64,000 nt of DNA from a virus: positions 30,357-94,356 of IMG/VR virus record IMGVR_UViG_3300005529_000026. One strand, written 5' to 3'. The position numbers and the translations under genes were made by a program. The notes beneath the pieces are model-generated. The model saw nothing but the letters and a program-made list of their open reading frames with translations. It did not search any database and was not told where the DNA came from. Shown piece by piece: positions 32,307 through 63,921 of this stretch. The number at the start of each line of letters is the position of its first letter. The first letter of the stretch is position 1.

Positions 32307-32444
32307 CTACCAAAACTTGCGAATGAAATGCACAGCCGTGTAAATCACCCCGGCCCAGAATGTCAGCCAGAGAAGAACCGGCGTCAGCATCACGCCTAGT
32401 GCGAACAAGCCGCCTATAATGCTTCCTCGATTGTTGTTGCGCAT
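32307..32444 (-). CDS. 45-residue membrane protein
   Basis: ATG with GGAGG 4 nt upstream. Two hydrophobic stretches (IIGGLFALGVMLTPVLLWL and FWAGVIYTAV) suggest a membrane miniprotein. Overlaps the HNH-like gene end by 31 nt. Confidence 0.55.
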   Translation of the reverse strand: MRNNNRGSIIGGLFALGVMLTPVLLWLTFWAGVIYTAVHFIRKFW

Positions 32445-32893
32445 AACTCCTCCATTGATTTGATGTACTGATACTTGCGCTTGTTAAACTGCTTTTGTGT
32501 TCGTCGTTCGTGACAGTTTGCGCAGCGTACTTCACATTTTGCTATCTCTGCTGTTATTGCCTCTAAGCCGCAAGCAGTCATGCCTGTAACATCGCGCTTC
32601 TTCTCGCCAGTAACGTGGTCGAACTCAAGCACCAACGGGTCAGCTTCGTCACAATCCACACATGGGTGTGTGGTCAGGTATTCCATCATGTAGGCGAATG
32701 CGCGGGAGCGGCGTTCTACGCTTTTAGCGCTGCGGTATTTCTTGCGGTCAATTTCCGGGTCTGCCTTTTTCCTAGAGGCGTGAATACCTTTGAAGCACTG
32801 CCTGCACTTTGACTGACGCCGCCCTTTCTCCCTGTTCTGGAAGGCAAAGTCATCATCAGGCTTGTTATGATTACAGCCGTTGCAGATTTTCAA
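32414..32893 (-). CDS. zinc-finger HNH-type endonuclease
   Basis: About 159 residues if the TTG at 32893 is used; the frame extends to 32926 but that part is the tmRNA terminator hairpin. CNGCNHNK with CRQC, then CVDCDEAD, LEFDHVTGEK and CANCHERRT give an HNH nuclease with extra zinc ligands. Start is uncertain because no binding site is seen. Confidence 0.7.
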   Translation of the reverse strand: MKICNGCNHNKPDDDFAFQNREKGRRQSKCRQCFKGIHASRKKADPEIDRKKYRSAKSVERRSRAFAYMMEYLTTHPCVDCDEADPLVLEFDHVTGEKKRDVTGMTACGLEAITAEIAKCEVRCANCHERRTQKQFNKRKYQYIKSMEELCATTIEEAL

Positions 32894-32926
32894 AGAAATA
32901 GTTTGGCGGGCATTGCACCCCGCCAA
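32887..32926 (-). terminator. terminator after the tmRNA
   Basis: Perfect 8-bp stem TTGGCGGG/CCCGCCAA with an 8-nt loop, followed by a weak ACTATTTCTTT tract on the - strand. Confidence 0.65.
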
Positions 32927-32931
32927 GGGCG

Positions 32932-33262
32932 TTGAGGAACTGAGTCGCCGTCACTCAGTGCGTTAGCTGCTGATTAAGCAGCCGCCGCAGCCATAGCCAA
33001 AGGCTTGGCAGTTGTTTTTGTCCGCTGATTACGTCAGTCGGCTCACGGATTCGTCCATAGCACCTTCAACCAACCCGTCGAAACTTGGCACGCCCATCAA
33101 AGCCGCTCAGCCCATCTATCGCATGATGGCAGTCCCTAGAAGCACAGGTGCGCTTAACTGTCCGGGTCTGTTGTTCTGAGCGGCTATGGTGGACGTGGCG
33201 GGCATCGCAGCCCGCGTCCGAATCGGTAAAGCACTACTTCATACGAATCAATCTTGGTTGGT
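32932..33262 (-). ncRNA. ssrA: circularly permuted (two-piece) tmRNA
   Basis: Transcript order is the acceptor piece first (33262-33187), ending TTCGGACGCGGG, then CCCGCCACGTCC and ACCA, nearly identical to bacterial tmRNA 3' ends apart from an unusual T-loop. A 91-nt intervening segment follows, closed by a 10-bp helix (33101-33110 with 33176-33185). Then the coding piece starts with GGGCGTG, which pairs with CACGTCC, followed by TTTCGACGGG and a tag frame ending MAAAAA-stop inside hairpin GCTGCT-TAATC-AGCAGC. An ACTGAGT/ACTCAGT hairpin ends it. tmRNA rescues stalled ribosomes with SmpB. Confidence 0.85.
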
Positions 33263-34821: not shown

Positions 34822-35376
34822 TTAAAAGAATATATTTTTACGAAAGCACGTATGTAGGATAGGCGTGTTACTGACGCCTCGTTTTAAGTCTGCGCCGCAC
34901 AGTGTGCGGAGCCTTCTGGATTGCTGCCCTTGGTGGGAGTCGAACCCACATTTCAGGCTGAGCAGGGTACAGGTGCTAATCCGCTTCAGGCGGGGATAGT
35001 CTGTAAAGCCCGCGACAGCCAGCGTCCTGCCAATTAGACGACAACGGCGTAGCGGACAACTAGCGAACCAACCCAGTTCTCCTACATCAGATTTGCCTAC
35101 CGTTCGTGTAGACCGTCGTGCGTCAACCGCGTCCTGACTCTCGTGGACTTCAGCGGCAATCTTCTCCGCTTCGTCAATCGCGGCGTGCAGAACCTGATTG
35201 GCAGTGCGTAGGGCCATCGCGGTGCCCTTCGCCCGCAGAACTTCTTCCTCGTGCAGCGCATGACGTGCGGCGGCAGAACCCTTAGCTTCGAGATTGGACA
35301 GCGTGCGCGGGAAATACTTCTTCATCACAAAAAACGCGATGACCGCGATAACTCCAAGTGCTAAAATCGTTGACAT
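34822..35376 (-). CDS. membrane-anchored coiled-coil protein, 3' end uncertain
   Basis: ATG at 35376 with AGGAGA upstream. One N-terminal transmembrane helix (ILALGVIAVIAFFVM), then a helical region to about residue 100. The last 80 codons run through the tRNA-like gene at 34925-35048 on the same strand, so the natural end is probably near 35050 and the rest may be read-through after an indel. Confidence 0.5.
   Translation of the reverse strand: MSTILALGVIAVIAFFVMKKYFPRTLSNLEAKGSAAARHALHEEEVLRAKGTAMALRTANQVLHAAIDEAEKIAAEVHESQDAVDARRSTRTVGKSDVGELGWFASCPLRRCRLIGRTLAVAGFTDYPRLKRISTCTLLSLKCGFDSHQGQQSRRLRTLCGADLKRGVSNTPILHTCFRKNIFF
34925..35048 (-). tRNA. tRNA-like gene with an enlarged anticodon loop
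   Basis: Acceptor GCCGTTG/CAAGGGC (6 of 7 pairs), D arm GTC/GAC, T arm GTGGG-TTCGACT-CCCAC, but the anticodon stem GGCTG/CAGCC encloses 55 nt instead of 7. The extra sequence folds into smaller hairpins. GCA stands where CCA is expected. It could be an intron-bearing tRNA or a rearranged relic. Confidence 0.45.
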
Positions 35377-36479: not shown

Positions 36480-37619
36480 TTACTGGTATTCGGTGACTTC
36501 TTTGCCGTCCTTGGCCTTGCGGAGCAGGTAGGCTTCGCTGACCGACTTCAGGATGACGCGGCCCAGCTTGGGGTCTTCCCTCTCGAACAGGGGTTTCACT
36601 ACAACCCCTTCCCGCAGGTTGACTCCACACCCAGATACCGTTTCTACGCCGTTTGTAGCCGTTTCTAGCGCCTCGCGGGTGAACTGGCCTAGGTAGACCT
36701 CTGGAACCAGTTCGAGGCCCGCAAATCGGCTCCAAAGCTGAAGTGGCCCGTAGCTGAGGAAGTGACCCTGCCCCGGCTTGCCAACGTAGATGTCAAACAC
36801 TCGGAAACCAAGGTCGGTCGCGTAGCCCAAGTCCTGAATACCGTTTCCGTAGACCTCACCGACCACGAAGATTGCCTCGATTGGAGCACTACCTTCTCCG
36901 TTGAACTCCTGCATTTTCGTGCAGAGCTTGCGGAGCTTGGATTCCAAATCGTGCTTTTTGGCAGCCCGGATGTAGGTATTCCCGGCGTTGGCCTCGTTGT
37001 TTTCGATGATGAACCCGCGTGCCCCTAGTCCCTTGCTAGAAACAGCAAACTGGTCAGTTGCAGGCCAGTACACCGCCTGCATGAGCGTGCCGTGAATCTT
37101 CTCGGTCATCACGACCGGCTCGCCTTCTTGGAAGACGCGCTTGTACGCCTTGATGTTCTCAATGTCGTACCGCAGCAGGTTGAAGTCGCCGCGAGGCCGC
37201 TGAATCTGTCCTGCAAAGTGTGCAGGGATGGGCGGCTCGTACTTCGTGACGCCCAAAACTGTTGCACAGTCTGCGCCTTCGCACAGACACAGAGTTGTGG
37301 CCCCGGCGCTTTCTCCTATCCGAGCAAGCACCTTGCTGTACGGGTAGAGCAAGCCCTGCGAAAGCGTCTTGCGCAGCTTGATGGCCTTGACGCGATTCTT
37401 GGCCGGGCCAGCCAGCTTGCCGGTCAGTCCCAGTTCTTCGAGGATGTCTACCGGCACGATAGAGCCTTCGGGGATGTAGATGGCCAAATCCCCGGAGTTG
37501 AAACTGCCTTTCTGGATGACGCACTTGTAATCCGCGACGTTCGCGGCTACGATAAAGTCTGCTCCTTCAATAGGTTGCACGTCATCCACGCGCACAACTG
37601 GGCATGCAAAATCAGCCAT
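36480..37619 (-). CDS. RNA ligase, Rnl5/DraRnl-like
   Basis: 379 residues from the ATG at 37619 with GGAGG upstream. An N-terminal OB-like domain (to about 150) precedes the nucleotidyltransferase domain with the AMP-accepting lysine in TEKIHGT (Lys174) and later VVGEVYG and GVVVKP motifs. This matches the Deinococcus RnlA type, which seals nicks with a 3'-OH RNA end. A second, T4-type ligase lies at 39.2-40.4 kb. Confidence 0.8.
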   Translation of the reverse strand: MADFACPVVRVDDVQPIEGADFIVAANVADYKCVIQKGSFNSGDLAIYIPEGSIVPVDILEELGLTGKLAGPAKNRVKAIKLRKTLSQGLLYPYSKVLARIGESAGATTLCLCEGADCATVLGVTKYEPPIPAHFAGQIQRPRGDFNLLRYDIENIKAYKRVFQEGEPVVMTEKIHGTLMQAVYWPATDQFAVSSKGLGARGFIIENNEANAGNTYIRAAKKHDLESKLRKLCTKMQEFNGEGSAPIEAIFVVGEVYGNGIQDLGYATDLGFRVFDIYVGKPGQGHFLSYGPLQLWSRFAGLELVPEVYLGQFTREALETATNGVETVSGCGVNLREGVVVKPLFEREDPKLGRVILKSVSEAYLLRKAKDGKEVTEYQ

Positions 37620-37644
37620 TCTAACCTCCATGCAATTTTTCTTC

Positions 37645-37673
37645 TTGACAGTTAAGCGTTTTCATGGTAAACT
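37645..37673 (+). promoter_or_regulatory. consensus promoter on the opposite strand
   Basis: TTGACA, 17 nt, TAAACT with TGG before the -10. It points right, against the local genes, and would make RNA antisense to the acidic miniprotein and phosphoesterase unless it stops in the GTTTGT/ACAAAC element near 37707-37732. Confidence 0.6.
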
Positions 37674-37725
37674 AACACCGCTTGGCTGTCGGGCGAAGAC
37701 TTATAGTTTGTTTTGTGGTGGTTTT

Positions 37726-37881
37726 TTACAAACAGAGACGGTTCAGGAATGACAGAGTGGATAGCTGCTCTGCATCTTCGTAGATGATTTCTGTTTCTTC
37801 ATCTTCTTCAGGATACGGCAGTGATTCGTCTTCTTCGTCGTACAGCACATCGTCTTCAGGAAACGCTCCACTAACTGACAT
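37726..37881 (-). CDS. 51-residue acidic protein
   Basis: Starts immediately after the phosphoesterase stop (GAGGGCTAGATG). Extremely acidic (EEDESLPYPEEDEETEI), the composition of DNA-mimic inhibitors, but no specific match is claimed. Confidence 0.6.
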   Translation of the reverse strand: MSVSGAFPEDDVLYDEEDESLPYPEEDEETEIIYEDAEQLSTLSFLNRLCL

Positions 37882-38697
37882 CTAGCCCTCCGTAGGAATT
37901 GGTCGTTGGTTGATGGTGAACAGGTCGCCTATATTCTCGTCGTACTGCACAATCTCGATAGAAGTTGCAGGGTCGTAGTTGAAAGCATTGAGCGCCACAA
38001 CCCTAGGGCCGGACAATTGCACCACCCGGTGTTTGTGGTAGTGGCCGAAGAAATGGAACCGAGGCTCGCCGCTGCGGTGCAGGTAATTGAAGCCGGGGCA
38101 ACCGCTGGCTTCTTCGTCGGGGTCGAGTCCTAGAATCTTCTTTATTTTCTCTGGGCAGTCACCTTGCTTGGGTAATGGCTGCATGCCGAATGGAGCCTCA
38201 TGGGTAATGAGCACGTCGAACTTGCCCGCGTCCGCTAGTTTGTCAACAGCAGATTTACGCACATGCAGTGCGGCAGCATTAGCCCCCATCCGCTGCCCAC
38301 CATGATTCAGCAGACTCATACGGGCCATCAGAATGCGCCCCTTGTTTTCATAGCTCTTGGGGCTGTAGTTTCCCCAAACTGAGCCGACCTTGATTCCTAG
38401 AACATCTGTGATGCCCCCGTCAGGCAGAAGCGTCATGTTGATGACACGCTGCGGGTCTTGCATCCAAGCATCTAGAAGCCGGTAGCTTTCGTGGTTGCCG
38501 GGGTTAACGTACGTCGTAATAGGTGCTGGCAGATGGCGTGTCCAAAACAGATTGAATTGCCTGCTTCCCACTCCGAGGTCACCGACATGAAGCACGGCGT
38601 CGAATTTCATTCCTAGCCGGTCTTCTAGGTTGATGAGGTACTCGTACATGCTGAGAATCTCTCCGTGCGTGTCGCCAACCACAGCGATGTTTTTCAT
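37882..38697 (-). CDS. calcineurin-like metallophosphoesterase
   Basis: 271 residues with the full motif set: VVGDTHG (start), HVGDLGVG, NPGNHES, ITHEAPFG and FGHYHKH. A two-metal phosphatase, diesterase or nuclease. It is different from the phosphoesterase at 6-7 kb in length and motif spacing. Confidence 0.82.
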   Translation of the reverse strand: MKNIAVVGDTHGEILSMYEYLINLEDRLGMKFDAVLHVGDLGVGSRQFNLFWTRHLPAPITTYVNPGNHESYRLLDAWMQDPQRVINMTLLPDGGITDVLGIKVGSVWGNYSPKSYENKGRILMARMSLLNHGGQRMGANAAALHVRKSAVDKLADAGKFDVLITHEAPFGMQPLPKQGDCPEKIKKILGLDPDEEASGCPGFNYLHRSGEPRFHFFGHYHKHRVVQLSGPRVVALNAFNYDPATSIEIVQYDENIGDLFTINQRPIPTEG

Positions 38698-38957
38698 TGA
38701 GAAACTCCCATGTTGCGCTTGTAAATGTCCCGGTAAGCATCACGCGCCTTTCGCACCACTTCCGCGTATTCGCGTGAAGCTCGCTCTTGCTGTTCACGTT
38801 CGTCTTGAATGCACAGCATGCAACGGTATGTCGGGCTTCCAGCGAGTTGCGCAATGGATTCTTGCCAGTCCATTTCGCAGTCATGCACGGCACACCAGCC
38901 CATCTTTGCTAGCCGCCGCCTAGCCATGCCTGCGATAAGACGCTTAATTGAGTTCAT
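38694..38957 (-). CDS. small zinc-binding protein
   Basis: 87 residues from the ATG overlapping the upstream stop (ATGA). CAVHDCE and CMLC pairs around residues 20-45 could bind zinc; the rest is a charged helix. Confidence 0.55.
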   Translation of the reverse strand: MNSIKRLIAGMARRRLAKMGWCAVHDCEMDWQESIAQLAGSPTYRCMLCIQDEREQQERASREYAEVVRKARDAYRDIYKRNMGVSQ

Positions 38958-39220
38958 TTGCCGAGAATCTCCTTCATATCCATACCTGTTCCATTGCACG
39001 GCTGGCAGACAGCCGTACTCCACAGCAGCACGAGCGGGTTAATGTCTAGAAACCAGATGCGGCCCTGTTTATCTACGGCGTTAGGATTGGGCCTAACCCA
39101 AGTCGGGTGCCCGCCCGTTGCGCCGTACTCGTCCGTCTCTCCGGTTTTGACAAAGCCGCCTGTGATTCCAGCCTCAACCTCGCCGCGCCCTTTGCACACA
39201 GGACAAATCGGCAACATCAT
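38954..39220 (-). CDS. DnaJ-type zinc-finger protein
   Basis: 88 residues with CPVCKGRGEV at the start and CQPCNGTGM near the end: two CxxCxGxG repeats as in DnaJ. No J domain, so it is not a DnaJ protein itself. Confidence 0.6.
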   Translation of the reverse strand: MMLPICPVCKGRGEVEAGITGGFVKTGETDEYGATGGHPTWVRPNPNAVDKQGRIWFLDINPLVLLWSTAVCQPCNGTGMDMKEILGK

Positions 39221-40356
39221 TCGCCGTCTCTCCTGAAGGACTCGTCTTTTGTGCAGTTCGGTCTAATCATCTTCCAGATGGTCGCTGTGGGGTCGCCGCC
39301 GTCTAGCATTTGAAAGCAAATCGAGGCGTACTGCCGACTCTCTGGCTGGTTGAAGTGAAACGCACACGCCTTGCGGTGCAGCCGGGTGTCTCCGTTGTGT
39401 ACGGGTCGGTTGATGTAAACTTCGTGTGCCGTTTCTAGAATCCGGTGGTATTCGTGGTCGAGCTTGTCACGCCACTCCGTGAGCCAAGCACGGAAATGCT
39501 CTGGCATGGTCTCATCGTTAATCCAAACGCGAATCTGGTCGTCTTTGCCTTCGGACATCAACTCCCAAACCGCTCTAGGATTCACGCCCGTCACGATGCG
39601 GTGTAGTCGAACATAGTCCTCGAATTTCACCTTAACCTTGACGGGCGGGCATGACGAGCCACGCGAGTAGGTCAGCACATATCCTTCGCGCCCGGCTTCA
39701 TTTTCAGTGGCAACCTCAGACAATGATTTCGAGTAACGCTGAACGACACGGACACCATTTGCTTTGGCCCACTTCCACAGTTCTTCGTAACCCATTTCCG
39801 CCCCGGTTCGGATGTTCACCATTCCGGTCAGAATGCACGTCTCGAAGTCGTACTTGCACACGATGCGGTTTTCGTCGTAGATAATCTCGAACAGAGGCGT
39901 CCAGCCTTCAGGCCACACCATGAACGAAAATGGGATAGGTTCGCGCTTCGCACGCAGCCAGTTAGTCGCCCACTTCGCCTGCGGGGAAGTGAACGAGCCG
40001 CGAGTGGCTATGCCGACGTACTCGCCGTACTGGTAAAGAATTCCTAACGAGCCGTCTAGCTTTTCTAGAACCAAAGGCTGAACGTTAGGTAGATTCGCTT
40101 CCATCGTTTCGGGAATAGAAGCGGTGTTGAGGTTGTGGAATTTCTTGTACGGGCGTGCAATGACGTTCCCTTGCTTGTCTACAATTAGTCCACGGCAATA
40201 ATCAATTGTGCCGTCACCCCAAGTCCCATAAATCTGGGCGTAGGGCGTGTAGTTGTAGATTTCAAGAGGAAGTTCAGGATGCTGCTGAACGGAAATTAGC
40301 CCGTTATCAATGTGCTGCTTGAGAAGGTTAACATCGAGCAGTTGAGAGATGAGCAT
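39217..40356 (-). CDS. rnlA: RNA ligase 1 (T4 Rnl1-like)
   Basis: 379 residues from the ATG at 40356; the much longer open frame upstream covers other genes. The motif LEKLDGSLG places the adenylated lysine at residue 99, the same position as in T4 Rnl1. YCRGLIVD, FEIIYDENRIV and GYVLTY also fit. Together with the Pnkp gene 0.9 kb upstream it forms the T4-type tRNA repair pair. Confidence 0.88.
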   Translation of the reverse strand: MLISQLLDVNLLKQHIDNGLISVQQHPELPLEIYNYTPYAQIYGTWGDGTIDYCRGLIVDKQGNVIARPYKKFHNLNTASIPETMEANLPNVQPLVLEKLDGSLGILYQYGEYVGIATRGSFTSPQAKWATNWLRAKREPIPFSFMVWPEGWTPLFEIIYDENRIVCKYDFETCILTGMVNIRTGAEMGYEELWKWAKANGVRVVQRYSKSLSEVATENEAGREGYVLTYSRGSSCPPVKVKVKFEDYVRLHRIVTGVNPRAVWELMSEGKDDQIRVWINDETMPEHFRAWLTEWRDKLDHEYHRILETAHEVYINRPVHNGDTRLHRKACAFHFNQPESRQYASICFQMLDGGDPTATIWKMIRPNCTKDESFRRDGE

Positions 40357-40727
40357 TTTGACCAATTCTCCGGCGCGGGCAGGGTCTTCTTGAGTTGAAG
40401 ACCTTCTTCCTTGGCACTGTCCATGTGCGCAATTTCTCTGACGGTATATTCCCGCCAGCACAGCGGGTGTCCGGTACGTGCAGGGCTTACAACTGAATCG
40501 AATTGCTTTGTCGTAAGGATGGTTTTCGCAACGAACGCAGCGGAGCCGTCTGACTGCGGGAATACTTCTCCCATTACTACGCCGTCGCGGTTGTGCCATG
40601 CCCAGCCACGCTCGCCGCAGTAGAGCAGGCGCATCGTCTCGCCCCCAACCGGGAAGCGGAATGCACGAGTACGCTGCTCTAGGCGTTTGTTCATGTGATT
40701 CGTGACGATGAACCTGATAAGTTGCAT
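40296..40727 (-). CDS. protein of unknown function
   Basis: 143 residues with AGGGGG before the ATG; the last 20 codons overlap the ligase start. Beta-rich core. No family recognised. Confidence 0.55.
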   Translation of the reverse strand: MQLIRFIVTNHMNKRLEQRTRAFRFPVGGETMRLLYCGERGWAWHNRDGVVMGEVFPQSDGSAAFVAKTILTTKQFDSVVSPARTGHPLCWREYTVREIAHMDSAKEEGLQLKKTLPAPENWSKCSSLNCSMLTFSSSTLITG

Positions 40728-40736
40728 TTTGGCCCC

Positions 40737-40916
40737 CTAGCTCTGCCCAAATCCTTCCGCAGTCCACACCCAATGTAAAAGCTGGCGCGGTGTGCAGTTC
40801 AACGCTAAGCTATTGTCCACGGCAAGCGCCATGACGAAGCCGACAGGTAGAAGCACGGCTGCGATAGCGCGAAAGGGAAGACCGAGATAGCGACCGATGA
40901 TTTTGAGCACCTTCAT
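40737..40916 (-). CDS. small membrane protein
   Basis: 59 residues from the ATG overlapping the upstream stop. One transmembrane segment (about 14-34). Unknown. Confidence 0.55.
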   Translation of the reverse strand: MKVLKIIGRYLGLPFRAIAAVLLPVGFVMALAVDNSLALNCTPRQLLHWVWTAEGFGQS

Positions 40917-41209
40917 TTCAGTTCCTCCAAGATGTGCCACACGAGACCATTTGCATCTTGCAATGTGGCAATGCAGTCGTAGGTTTTAGAGCTATCTCCG
41001 AACGGGACGCCGGTAAAGGCAACGATAATCACCCTAGGAACCGTTGGCTTGGCGTCGAAATCGTCTGGGTGAATCTCCCAAAGAATGAGATTGCCGCGCT
41101 GGATTTGAACGTCCAGCACGGCAGCCTTCGGGTGTAGTGGGAGAAGGTACGTTCCGACTTGAAACGGCAACTTGTGCTTGTGGATGACATTCTCAACGAT
41201 GCGCGACAT
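40913..41209 (-). CDS. protein of unknown function
   Basis: 98 residues from the ATG just after the Pnkp stop, with GAAGGG upstream. Beta-rich (LPFQVGTYLLPLHPKAAVLD). A small family of phage proteins with this look is known but has no assigned role. Confidence 0.6.
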   Translation of the reverse strand: MSRIVENVIHKHKLPFQVGTYLLPLHPKAAVLDVQIQRGNLILWEIHPDDFDAKPTVPRVIIVAFTGVPFGDSSKTYDCIATLQDANGLVWHILEELK

Positions 41210-41210
41210 T

Positions 41211-42161
41211 TTAGAAATTCCCTTCTGCAACTTGGTAGACCTTGACTCCATTTGCTCGCCACATATCAACAACACGTTGGCGGTCATCAATCACGAAGGC
41301 GATGCGCTCCTTCGGGAGTCGGTTTAGAATTTCTTGTTTCACCACGGTGTCGTCTCGCTTGTCGCCGCCCTTGCGCATGAAGATGTGGCGATATTTGACG
41401 CCGTACTTTTCTAGCCAAGTAGTTGTTTTGAACCCGGCCTTGTCCATCGGTCGTCCTGACACGATGACGACTTCGTATTCCTTGGACTCGCTTAGAGCTT
41501 TCACCCACTTCAGAACGGCTTCAATCGGTTCATCTTCGTTGCAGTGCTCGAAGAAAGCGTTCCAGTCTTTTTTTGCTCTGCCGGTGCCCCTGCAAGTAGG
41601 GCAGCGAGAATCTTGAGTGCCGCCGTTTCCGTTGCACGCTGTGCAAGGGCGTGACTCTACAAACTGTCTACGCGCCCGCACATCGGACAGGGTGCCATCC
41701 ATGTCCACCAAGACCAGTTGCTTGTCTACGGGAAAATGAAGCAGCCCATTGTCCAGCGCCATGCGCTCGATGACATGACGGCCCACCCGCGCTTTGCCTT
41801 CACGTTGCGCGTCCCGGCGAATCAGTTCCTCGATGCGAATATCTAGAAATGACGAGTCCATCACAAGAGGAACGCCGACACTCTGCGCTAGCTGATGCCA
41901 GCGCTCGCGGGTTCTGTGGTTCAGGTTGGTGTTGTCCACGACAACGCTCTTGCCAGCAGCTAGGGCTGACAATGCCCGGTCTTCAGCGATGCGGCGCACT
42001 TGCTTTTCGGTCTCGTGACTGAAACGATATTCAGGATTGAGTTCTAGCCGAATGTCGTCCCAATTGACGCGAACCCAACCCTCAGCTTCTAGATTCTTGG
42101 CTTCTGTTGATTTCCCTGATGCAGGAAGGCCGACAAGCAGCAACAGCACTTGCTTATTCAT
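41211..42161 (-). CDS. pseT: polynucleotide 5'-kinase / 3'-phosphatase (T4 PseT-like)
   Basis: 316 residues. P-loop GLPASGKST (11-19) heads the kinase half; DMDGTLSDV near residue 155 starts the HAD phosphatase half. Within the phosphatase, about 20-40 residues after that motif, is an inserted DnaJ-type zinc finger (CTACNGNGG, CPTCRGTGR), unusual for this family. It prepares broken RNA ends (5'-phosphate, 3'-OH) for the ligases. Confidence 0.88.
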   Translation of the reverse strand: MNKQVLLLLVGLPASGKSTEAKNLEAEGWVRVNWDDIRLELNPEYRFSHETEKQVRRIAEDRALSALAAGKSVVVDNTNLNHRTRERWHQLAQSVGVPLVMDSSFLDIRIEELIRRDAQREGKARVGRHVIERMALDNGLLHFPVDKQLVLVDMDGTLSDVRARRQFVESRPCTACNGNGGTQDSRCPTCRGTGRAKKDWNAFFEHCNEDEPIEAVLKWVKALSESKEYEVVIVSGRPMDKAGFKTTTWLEKYGVKYRHIFMRKGGDKRDDTVVKQEILNRLPKERIAFVIDDRQRVVDMWRANGVKVYQVAEGNF

Positions 42162-44282: not shown

Positions 44283-44446
44283 GCGGCTGCCGCCATTTGC
44301 ACGCAGTACGCGCTGCGTTGCAGGTGTTTGTGATGGCAGCCGTTGGAGAGGCAGTGATTGCGCCCGCAAAAGACGCAGAAGATGGTTTCTTCAACGTCAT
44401 AGCCACAGTTGTCACAGAGGTTGACTTCTACGCCTTGTTCCACCAT
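44279..44446 (-). CDS. 55-residue zinc-ribbon protein
   Basis: ATG with GAGAGG upstream, inside the end of the AAA+ gene. CDNCG and CVFCG knuckles plus C/H residues (CLSNGCHHKH) form a likely double zinc site. Confidence 0.55.
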   Translation of the reverse strand: MVEQGVEVNLCDNCGYDVEETIFCVFCGRNHCLSNGCHHKHLQRSAYCVQMAAAA

Positions 44447-45531
44447 TTTCCTCTCTCCTTTGCGGATGTTGGTTGCAGCGGAATTTCCGCTAATCTCTCG
44501 AAAACCGCCGATACTTCCGGCTTGATAAGCTCGCGTGTGAACCTGTATTCGCCTTTCTTGTAAGTCACCGCAACGATTTCGTTTGGCCCGGCTTGACCAG
44601 AAGAAGCTAGGCGAGCTAGAGGCTGAACAATCTTTCTCTCGATGACACGGTTCAGTTCTCGTCCGCCATATTCTGCGTTGTAACCCTCGTCCAGCAGGGC
44701 TTTCTTGGCTTCCTTCGAGAATGTGACAAGGAACCCTTTGCCAGATTTCAAAATCCGTTCCTGAACTTTCGCTAGTTCTAGTTCAAGGATTTGCTCGATA
44801 TCAGTCTTCGTCAGCGTGCGGAACACCACCATCTTGTCAATGCGATTCATAAACTCCGGCGAGAACTTGCGCTTCGCCGCAGCGATGGCGGTGCTTTCTA
44901 CTTGTGAGTGGTGGGCGTCGTCCGCAGCGAATGACTGCGTGCCGAAGCCAAACTGTGAGCCTTGCAGTTTCGCAATGTCACCAGCGCCGACATTGGAAGT
45001 CATAAAGATGAAGGTGCGGGAGAAGTCCACGCGACGGTTATCACCCATCGTGAGAGTGGCCTTGTCCATGATTCCCAACATCAACTTCCAAAGCGCATCG
45101 CTTGCTTTTTCGATTTCATCAAACAGCAGCAGAGAAACCTTCAAAGAATCGGTGTGCCAGCGGTCAAGCAGGTCTTGAGCTAACGCGGGGTGAGTCTCGC
45201 GGTGCCCTAGATAACCGGGCGGTGAGCCAATGAGCTTGCAGATTTCGTGGCTGTGCTGGAATTCTGAGCAATCAATTTTGAGCACTGCGCCGGGGTCGCC
45301 GTAGAAAGATTCCGCAACTGCTTCCACGAGGCGCGTCTTGCCGGTGCCGGTCGGCCCTAGGAACATCAAAGTTCCCAGCGGTCGGTTTGGCTTGTTCATC
45401 CCTGCCAAGTAGGTCTCGTACATCTCAACCATGCGAGTAACGGCTTCGTCTTGGCCGATAACCCGCGCATGCAGGTCGGCTTCTAGCTTCAGGGCTGACT
45501 CGCTGCGAATGTTGGGATTAAGAATTTCCAT
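44428..45531 (-). CDS. Clp-type AAA+ ATPase (single-module, ClpB D2-like)
   Basis: 367 residues. Walker A GPTGTGKT (59-66), Walker B LLLFDEIEKA, sensor MTSNVGAG and the small C-terminal domain with YGGRELNRVIERKI match the second AAA+ module of ClpA/ClpB. The N-domain and first module are absent, so it is not a complete disaggregase. Possible chaperone or unfoldase for phage or host proteins. Confidence 0.82.
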   Translation of the reverse strand: MEILNPNIRSESALKLEADLHARVIGQDEAVTRMVEMYETYLAGMNKPNRPLGTLMFLGPTGTGKTRLVEAVAESFYGDPGAVLKIDCSEFQHSHEICKLIGSPPGYLGHRETHPALAQDLLDRWHTDSLKVSLLLFDEIEKASDALWKLMLGIMDKATLTMGDNRRVDFSRTFIFMTSNVGAGDIAKLQGSQFGFGTQSFAADDAHHSQVESTAIAAAKRKFSPEFMNRIDKMVVFRTLTKTDIEQILELELAKVQERILKSGKGFLVTFSKEAKKALLDEGYNAEYGGRELNRVIERKIVQPLARLASSGQAGPNEIVAVTYKKGEYRFTRELIKPEVSAVFERLAEIPLQPTSAKERGKWWNKA

Positions 45532-62764: not shown

Positions 62765-63682
62765 TTAGAGATTTTTCAGCGGGCTGACACGCTCCAACTC
62801 CTCCTGTTGGTATTTGGTGCTGATATGCAGATAACCCTTCAACACATCGAGAGATTTGTGGCCGGTCATGGATTGCAGCTTACCGATGTCGCCGCCGTTT
62901 TCTAGGTAGAGAGTGCAGCAAGCGTGACGCAGAGTGTGCGGGCTGAGAGTTTTGATGCCGAGACGACGGCGCACAGCCGCGAACGCATGGTCGAACATGA
63001 ATACTGTGGCTGGTTCGCCGGACTGGTTGACGAAAACACGGTCACTCTTGGCGAAATGCTCTCGCCTACGTAGCCAGCCTTTCATAAGGCGCACCATGTC
63101 CTTTGTGATTCCCACAAGACGCATGTTCGTTTTTCCCTCCTCCGGCACGATGATGGTCTGTTCATCGAGCTTTAGGTGTTCCAACTTCAAATGACAAAGC
63201 TCTCCGACACGCATTCCGGTTTCAAGCATGAGAGAAAACGCAACATAATTGCGGTAACCGGAGCGCTTGTTCACGTTGAAAGCAGCTTTGAAAGCCTTCA
63301 TGTCCTTGCGCTCAGGAATCACCTTCCGACTGGGGGTTTTAGGTATAGGCGGGAGCAGCTTGTACCACGGCTTCAGTCCATCCTCTTGGCAGTCTTCACT
63401 TTTTTCAACCCAGCGAAAAAGCGCCCGCACCGACCGAAGGATTTTGTAGCGCGTGGCGTCACTGATGTTCTTGTTGTCCTGAATCGAATCTAGGAAATCG
63501 AGCACGTCAGGACGCTTCATGGCTTCGTACGTGATGATTCCGCGCTCGCGCATGAACTCGAAGAACCACTTCAAGTCCCAGCGGTAGCTCTCAAGCGTGC
63601 GCGGGCGTGCGAACTTTCTTGCCCCTTCCCGGCCCCTCTCCCGCGACCTCAGAAACAGCCTTTCAAGCTCCTCGAAGCTCAT
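62765..63682 (-). CDS. int: tyrosine recombinase (integrase)
   Basis: 305 residues, XerC/D-like. N-terminal SAM-like domain (5-90); catalytic residues Arg158 (TGMRVGE), His249/Arg252 (PHTLRHA), His275 (GHKS) and Tyr284. Catalyses site-specific recombination between phage and host attachment sites. Beside a tRNA-Lys half at 63.9 kb, a likely attachment site. Confidence 0.9.
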   Translation of the reverse strand: MSFEELERLFLRSRERGREGARKFARPRTLESYRWDLKWFFEFMRERGIITYEAMKRPDVLDFLDSIQDNKNISDATRYKILRSVRALFRWVEKSEDCQEDGLKPWYKLLPPIPKTPSRKVIPERKDMKAFKAAFNVNKRSGYRNYVAFSLMLETGMRVGELCHLKLEHLKLDEQTIIVPEEGKTNMRLVGITKDMVRLMKGWLRRREHFAKSDRVFVNQSGEPATVFMFDHAFAAVRRRLGIKTLSPHTLRHACCTLYLENGGDIGKLQSMTGHKSLDVLKGYLHISTKYQQEELERVSPLKNL

Positions 63683-63879
63683 TTTTTGCCTCCCGAATCA
63701 ACTGACTTTGACCTTTTTTCTGCTAAATCATTGCATCTACAAGCATTATACTTGCACTACAAGTCATTCAATGCGGCAGGCTAACTGCTTGACCGTATTG
63801 AATAAACCCTTCGTATCCTACAAATTGCAATGTTTTTGCAGAGTATCACAAGCAATCGCGTTGCGTCAATCGCAAGCAA
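63683..63879. other. AT-rich gap between integrase and tRNA half
   Basis: About 200 bp, AT-rich, no gene; contains short repeats such as CAATCGC and GCAAGCAATTG (63852-63883). Probably the arm-site region of the integrase and the attachment site. Confidence 0.45.
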
Positions 63880-63921
63880 TTGATTAAGAGTCAGTTGCTC
63901 TGCCAGTTGAGCTACGCGCCC
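63880..63921 (-). other. 5' half of tRNA-Lys (CUU), candidate attachment site
   Basis: GGGCGCG, TA, a normal D arm and the anticodon loop CTCTTAA (CUU), then the 3' half is missing and sequence diverges. TTATAAT lies about 50 nt upstream, so a tRNA promoter may be present. Adjacent to the integrase. It marks an att core inside a tRNA-Lys gene, either on the phage or at a prophage boundary. Confidence 0.6.

Follow-up and report, generated by a model that had tools for sequence, protein, structure and literature searches.

The locus raises two questions, namely whether a phage genome carries a complete circularly permuted, two-piece tmRNA gene and what such a gene would do for the phage. tmRNA is the RNA that frees stuck ribosomes, and its two-piece form has been described from alphaproteobacteria, betaproteobacteria and cyanobacteria, while among phages it is mostly aquatic. 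The window, i.e., the whole stretch of 64,000 nucleotides analysed here, is contained in a 94,356-base IMG/VR phage record whose genes include those of a terminase, a portal, a major head protein, a DNA polymerase, a primase-helicase, a recombinase and a ribonucleotide reductase, besides an integrase at window positions 62765-63682 (minus strand). The claim that the element is encoded by a phage was upheld by this gene content.

The original prediction of a permuted tmRNA on the minus strand was borne out by a covariance search, in which the Rfam permuted tmRNA model RF04321 gave a full-length match (model positions 1-213) at 33249-32974 (minus strand), with 83.4 bits and E = 1.8e-14, far above the curated cut-off of 47 bits and with the tag included. 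The tmRNA motifs first noticed in the sequence occurred once each, on the minus strand and in the order originally given, which is that of acceptor, spacer and coding piece. Free folding of the precursor (33262-32895) yielded -157.7 kcal/mol (z = -6.65), a stability equalled by 0 of 100 shuffles, and the acceptor stem, the T-arm, the spacer helix and the long P2 all emerged from this unguided fold. ARAGORN did not call the window copy, possibly because of its unusual T-loop, and called permuted tmRNAs in many relatives of the window phage. These results altogether supported, at the level of sequence, that the element is a phage-borne, permuted tmRNA gene of the two-piece type.

The gene, all of whose parts lie on the minus strand, probably extends over 32903-33262, as drawn from the RF04321 match (which covers 32974-33249) and from the fold, and thereby includes a 3′ terminal hairpin. 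The acceptor piece (33249-33187, with a provisional 5′ end) was placed by RF04321 and motif positions, and carries the P2 5′ strand (33249-33243), the T-arm GCGGG-CTGCGATG-CCCGC (33215-33198), the acceptor 3′ strand CACGTCC (33197-33191) and an encoded ACCA (33190-33187). It is followed by a 91-nt intervening spacer (33186-33096), predicted to be removed, which a 10-bp helix closes (33185-33176 pairing with 33110-33101) and which gave z = -3.63 when folded alone. The coding piece (33095-32903, with a provisional outer end), placed by the same two lines of evidence, comprises the acceptor 5′ strand GGGCGTG (33095-33089), the motif TTTCGACGGG (33083-33074, including TTTCGAC at 33083-33077), the P2 3′ strand ACGAATC (33054-33048, from RF04321 and motif positions) and the tag frame with its stop (33009-32974, from the RF04321 alignment). 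The hairpin TTGGCGGG-GTGCAATG-CCCGCCAA (32926-32903), found by folding and followed by a T-rich tail, is likely the end of the coding piece or a terminator. GGGCGTG and CACGTCC form a 7-bp acceptor stem with the G3-U70 alanine identity pair, and both coordinates and fold agreed with the proposed pairing across a 91-nt piece closed by a 10-bp helix; the piece ends foreseen near 33187 and 33095 fell exactly on the final base of the encoded CCA and on the base that opens the coding piece. Directly 3′ of the tmRNA, a possible HNH-type endonuclease with paired cysteine motifs is encoded at 32414-32926 (minus strand), for which a Pfam search gave no match at 0.001.

Two features of the locus had been regarded as odd. 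The first, a tag frame one base off from the resume codon, was ruled out by the covariance alignment, in which GCC at 33009-33007 aligns with the resume GCA of the model and is in frame with the stop, so that translation from it gives AKPLAMAAAAA followed by TAA. This in-frame reading is further supported by the occurrence of similar tags elsewhere, namely AETKPLAFAAAA, from a metagenome-assembled genome (MAG) titled Bacteroidetes, and ANEETLAMEAAA, in other copies. The second, an 8-nt T-loop, is real, and loops other than 7 nt were present among the 24 distinct tmRNA genes of the comparison set (8-nt in four, 6-nt in four). The RF04321 alignment treats the extra C of CTGCGATG as an insertion, after which the key U, C, G and A residues align; alternatively, the T-arm could be read as a 6-bp stem with the loop UGCGAU. 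The loop differs from the TTCGAYT typical of other copies, and all 102 other viral copies listed by a pattern search have a 7-nt loop, mostly TTCGACT. Since ARAGORN misses the window copy and its T-loop departs from the typical sequence, this copy may be weakened; no close relative of it was found.

Conservation was assessed over the same 24 genes. Acceptor pairs were formed in 168 of 168 cases, against 134.7 expected with partners shuffled, and T-stem pairs in 120 of 120, against 82.3 expected, with 0 of 2000 shuffles as good in either case. Acceptor pairs 4-6 change on both sides, each using all four Watson-Crick pairs, and P2 also covaries (GATTCGT/ACGAATC in the window; GCACGT/ACGTGC and GGATGT/ACATCC in others), while the G3-U70 alanine signal is invariant in 24 of 24. 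Spacer length varies between 11 and 219 nt, and a closing helix longer than shuffling yields is found in most spacers of at least 57 nt. An open tag frame was found in every gene, with a resume codon that is mostly GCN and in a few cases GTN or GGC, and many of these tags were independently recovered by ARAGORN. The 102 further IMG/VR matches listed by the pattern search all showed 7/7 acceptor pairs, 5/5 T-stem pairs and G3-U70; according to such scans, IMG/VR holds at least about 100 further viral permuted tmRNAs.

The best matches of the window primase among annotated phages were Tunturi_4 (47%) and Tunturi_3 (42%), the nearest isolates, which are phages of Tunturiibacter, phylum Acidobacteriota (PMC11924767). 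This primase kinship suggests that the host of the window phage is linked to Acidobacteriota. RF04321 matched Tunturi_4 with 79.2 bits and Tunturi_3 with 63.3 bits, and a tmRNA is mentioned neither in their annotation nor in the paper that describes them (PMC11924767). Used alone as a query against IMG/VR viral contigs, the window primase gave no match; an alignment including the Tunturi proteins retrieved 80 IMG/VR loci with related primases, and 50 records, sampled by primase similarity and including some near-identical pairs, were scanned for tmRNA. Of the 21 relatives 80 kb or longer, 20 had a permuted tmRNA (18 of 19 IMG/VR records and both Tunturi isolates) and one, G007, lacked it; records below 80 kb are fragments and say little about absence. 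The gene lay on the strand of the primase in 25 of 25 records, in one of two position classes: in some, among them the window phage and Tunturi_4, it is ~5-10 kb upstream, and in others, such as Tunturi_3, the distance is tens of kb. A blastn search for the window tmRNA among annotated phages and plasmids gave no useful match, and the covariance search was needed because the gene is too diverged for blastn.

When genome contigs were scanned, only two MAGs were obtained, titled Bacteroidetes and Fibrobacteres. No permuted tmRNA scored above the cut-off in 40 genomes from the phylum of the former, and the contig bearing its own tmRNA match was taken to be a putative phage. A prophage sitting at the host ssrA in the Fibrobacteres MAG was considered and dropped, the two loci being non-overlapping. 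As for the Acidobacteriota themselves, a survey reports ssrA in 45 of 46 genomes, the available part of that source not stating whether in one or two pieces (PMC11633108). Upstream of the window integrase lies a truncated 5′ half of tRNA-Lys(CTT) (63853-63921, minus strand), likely an attachment site; a bacterial tRNA-Lys gene matching it could reveal the host.

Other RNA elements were observed in these genomes. A 124-nt tRNA in the window (34925-35048, minus strand) has a long structured insert of 58 nt replacing or interrupting the anticodon loop, and similar ones were seen at L106 1893-2058 (plus strand; 166 nt) and at L133 (G019 86900-87020, minus strand; 121 nt), the latter resembling tRNA-His with the insert just 3′ of the GTG anticodon. 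RNA ligase genes are present in all three phages. The inserts could be phage tRNA introns of a new type, or the tRNAs could have decayed; group I introns were rejected on the grounds that the inserts are too short. Four unannotated Twister-P5 ribozymes lie between genes of Tunturi_4 (L003 8349-13149, minus strand), and in two viral contigs with a permuted tmRNA a suppressor-type tRNA-Pyl (CTA) was labelled by ARAGORN (L189 6031-6106 and L190 8105-8180).

Regarding its place among known systems, the window gene shares with the RF04321 family the gene order, the tRNA-domain helices, G3-U70, the resume codon, the tag frame and the spacer. Among the named subtypes (alpha, beta and cyano; RF01849, RF01850 and RF01851), the beta model gave the window copy 53.5 bits, below its cut-off of 84, and no alpha or cyano match was reported in the Rfam scan; judged by these scores, it is a permuted tmRNA outside all three. 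The subtype matches of its relatives were scattered over weak beta, alpha and standard models. Since the primase-linked copies did not fall into one clade in a rough tree of 129 viral permuted tmRNAs, neither a single origin nor a fourth lineage was established. Mycobacteriophage tmRNA (Bxz1 and others) has the standard one-piece gene order and is not permuted. It is likewise carried by the phage (PMC4131195). The novelty originally assumed for a phage copy did not hold, given that phage-borne permuted tmRNA had already been published: Melnitz carries a two-piece ssrA, and 133 unique tmRNA structures were found in 402 phages, 53 of them two-piece, of which 50 were marine or aquatic (PMC9004378). 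The permuted gene is phage-borne in both cases; however, the present phages are soil phages tied to Acidobacteriota, and the Rfam scan of the window revealed no glutamine riboswitch, unlike in Melnitz. What looks new is the near-fixed carriage in Acidobacteriota-linked phages together with long, variable tags.

With the gene order, the helices, the alanine signal, the tag frame and the conservation all read from the sequence, the element is very probably a functional, phage-borne permuted tmRNA gene, serving ribosome rescue that depends on the host SmpB. Known tmRNA biology suggests how processing, charging and SmpB use would proceed and what benefit might follow. A single precursor would be transcribed from the minus strand and cut by host tRNA-processing enzymes at two places, the encoded CCA (33187) and the G that opens the coding piece (33095), releasing the 91-nt spacer, with the 7-bp acceptor stem and the P2 helix keeping the two pieces together. 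The host alanyl-tRNA synthetase would charge the RNA via the G3-U70 signal, and with the help of host SmpB and EF-Tu it would reach ribosomes that broken or non-stop mRNA has stalled, where translation would resume at GCC, append AKPLAMAAAAA and stop. The host SmpB would have to serve, since no SmpB gene was found in 32 phage records by a search that succeeded on 10 control bacteria. The benefit can be guessed as ribosome rescue sustained in the late stage of infection, with host genes shut off and mRNA undergoing cleavage. ArfB-type (release-factor-like) proteins were detected only in Tunturi_3, Tunturi_4, G038 and, weakly, G037, and not in the window record. In Tunturi_4, the gene of a short RF-1-domain (ArfB-like) protein (L002 43532-44293) ends ~5 bases before the tmRNA match, placing two ribosome-rescue functions side by side.

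The tags themselves invite another reading, in which long or unusual peptides would spare, redirect or mark proteins instead of sending them to degradation by the host Clp system. Over 23 genes (the alpha-type phage G001, found via its tmRNA and not its primase, was left out), tags are 11-37 aa long with a median of 26, against a commonest length of 10 aa in the tmRNA database (PMC11915505), and 13 of the 23 end without Ala-Ala (LVMA, AAAGR, LATA and others). Among the viral permuted tmRNAs of the pattern search, in contrast, short tags of the ANDxxxALAA type, roughly 10 aa, predominate. A YDxM...LV[ML]A pattern is common to three long tags, for which dN is 0.43-0.51 and dS 0.69-0.84, a modest purifying signal and thus a slight indication that the peptide is under selection, although dN/dS is weak on such short sequences. 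The tag of the window is the shortest of the group and ends in five alanines, which speaks against this reading, whereas Tunturi_3 and Tunturi_4, whose replication module is related and which each have a permuted tmRNA, carry the far longer VNKIDRSVVAVVPASRKVRVAQFATMLAA and ANTVTSTIRNVASVRTGFFRSAEPITNRYAVAA. Phage-specific tagging was considered rather unlikely, and equally doubtful is the broader proposal of a fourth, host-foreign branch of two-piece tmRNA in Acidobacteriota phages whose hosts have the one-piece form, with fast-changing long tags serving a phage-controlled marking whose outcome would differ from that of the host degradation tag. A strong match to the C-terminal part of the phage ATP-dependent protease family phrog_4871 lies ~11 kb from the tmRNA (44428-45531, minus strand), and this protein could influence what becomes of tagged proteins.

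Variable tags, often without Ala-Ala ends, would also suit a decoy, for which the tag hardly matters and which would block host trans-translation by binding SmpB, EF-Tu or alanyl-tRNA synthetase of the host. The lack of SmpB in these phages fits it too, as does the strong inhibition of tmRNA by a molecule consisting of the tRNA-like domain only and resembling the tmRNA of mycobacteriophage DS6A (PMC4131195). However, no copy has lost its tag frame, resume codon or stop, none of which a decoy would need, and this reading is improbable. Even less credence can be given to the idea that an imprecise excision out of a host ssrA left the phage with a passenger that now has no function: ssrA is a frequent integration target of mobile elements (PMC9004378, PMC11915505) and the record has an integrase, but the gene is complete, covaries over 24 diverged copies, is near-universal in large relatives with a fixed strand and two shared positions, and the attP-like piece in the window is the tRNA-Lys half and not ssrA. 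Of the suggested RNA-repair island, the genes were indeed found ~3-9 kb upstream of the tmRNA (36480-42161, minus strand: two RNA ligases, 36480-37631 and 39217-40773; metallophosphoesterase, 37882-38697; PNKP-like protein, 41211-42161), but a partnership in which, for instance, the phage ligases reseal the two pieces is the least probable reading, a permuted tmRNA needing no ligation and a PF09414 RNA-ligase match being absent from seven tmRNA-bearing relatives, Tunturi_4 included (W01, G002, G009, G010, G014, G033 and G044).

Ribosome rescue with host SmpB thus stands as the preferred reading of the window gene. With near-fixed carriage across a wide range of soil phages linked to Acidobacteriota, this two-piece tmRNA would lend itself well to the question of why phages have a tmRNA at all, as there are two plaque-forming isolates with known, culturable hosts, and their long tags may be separable from those of the host by mass spectrometry.
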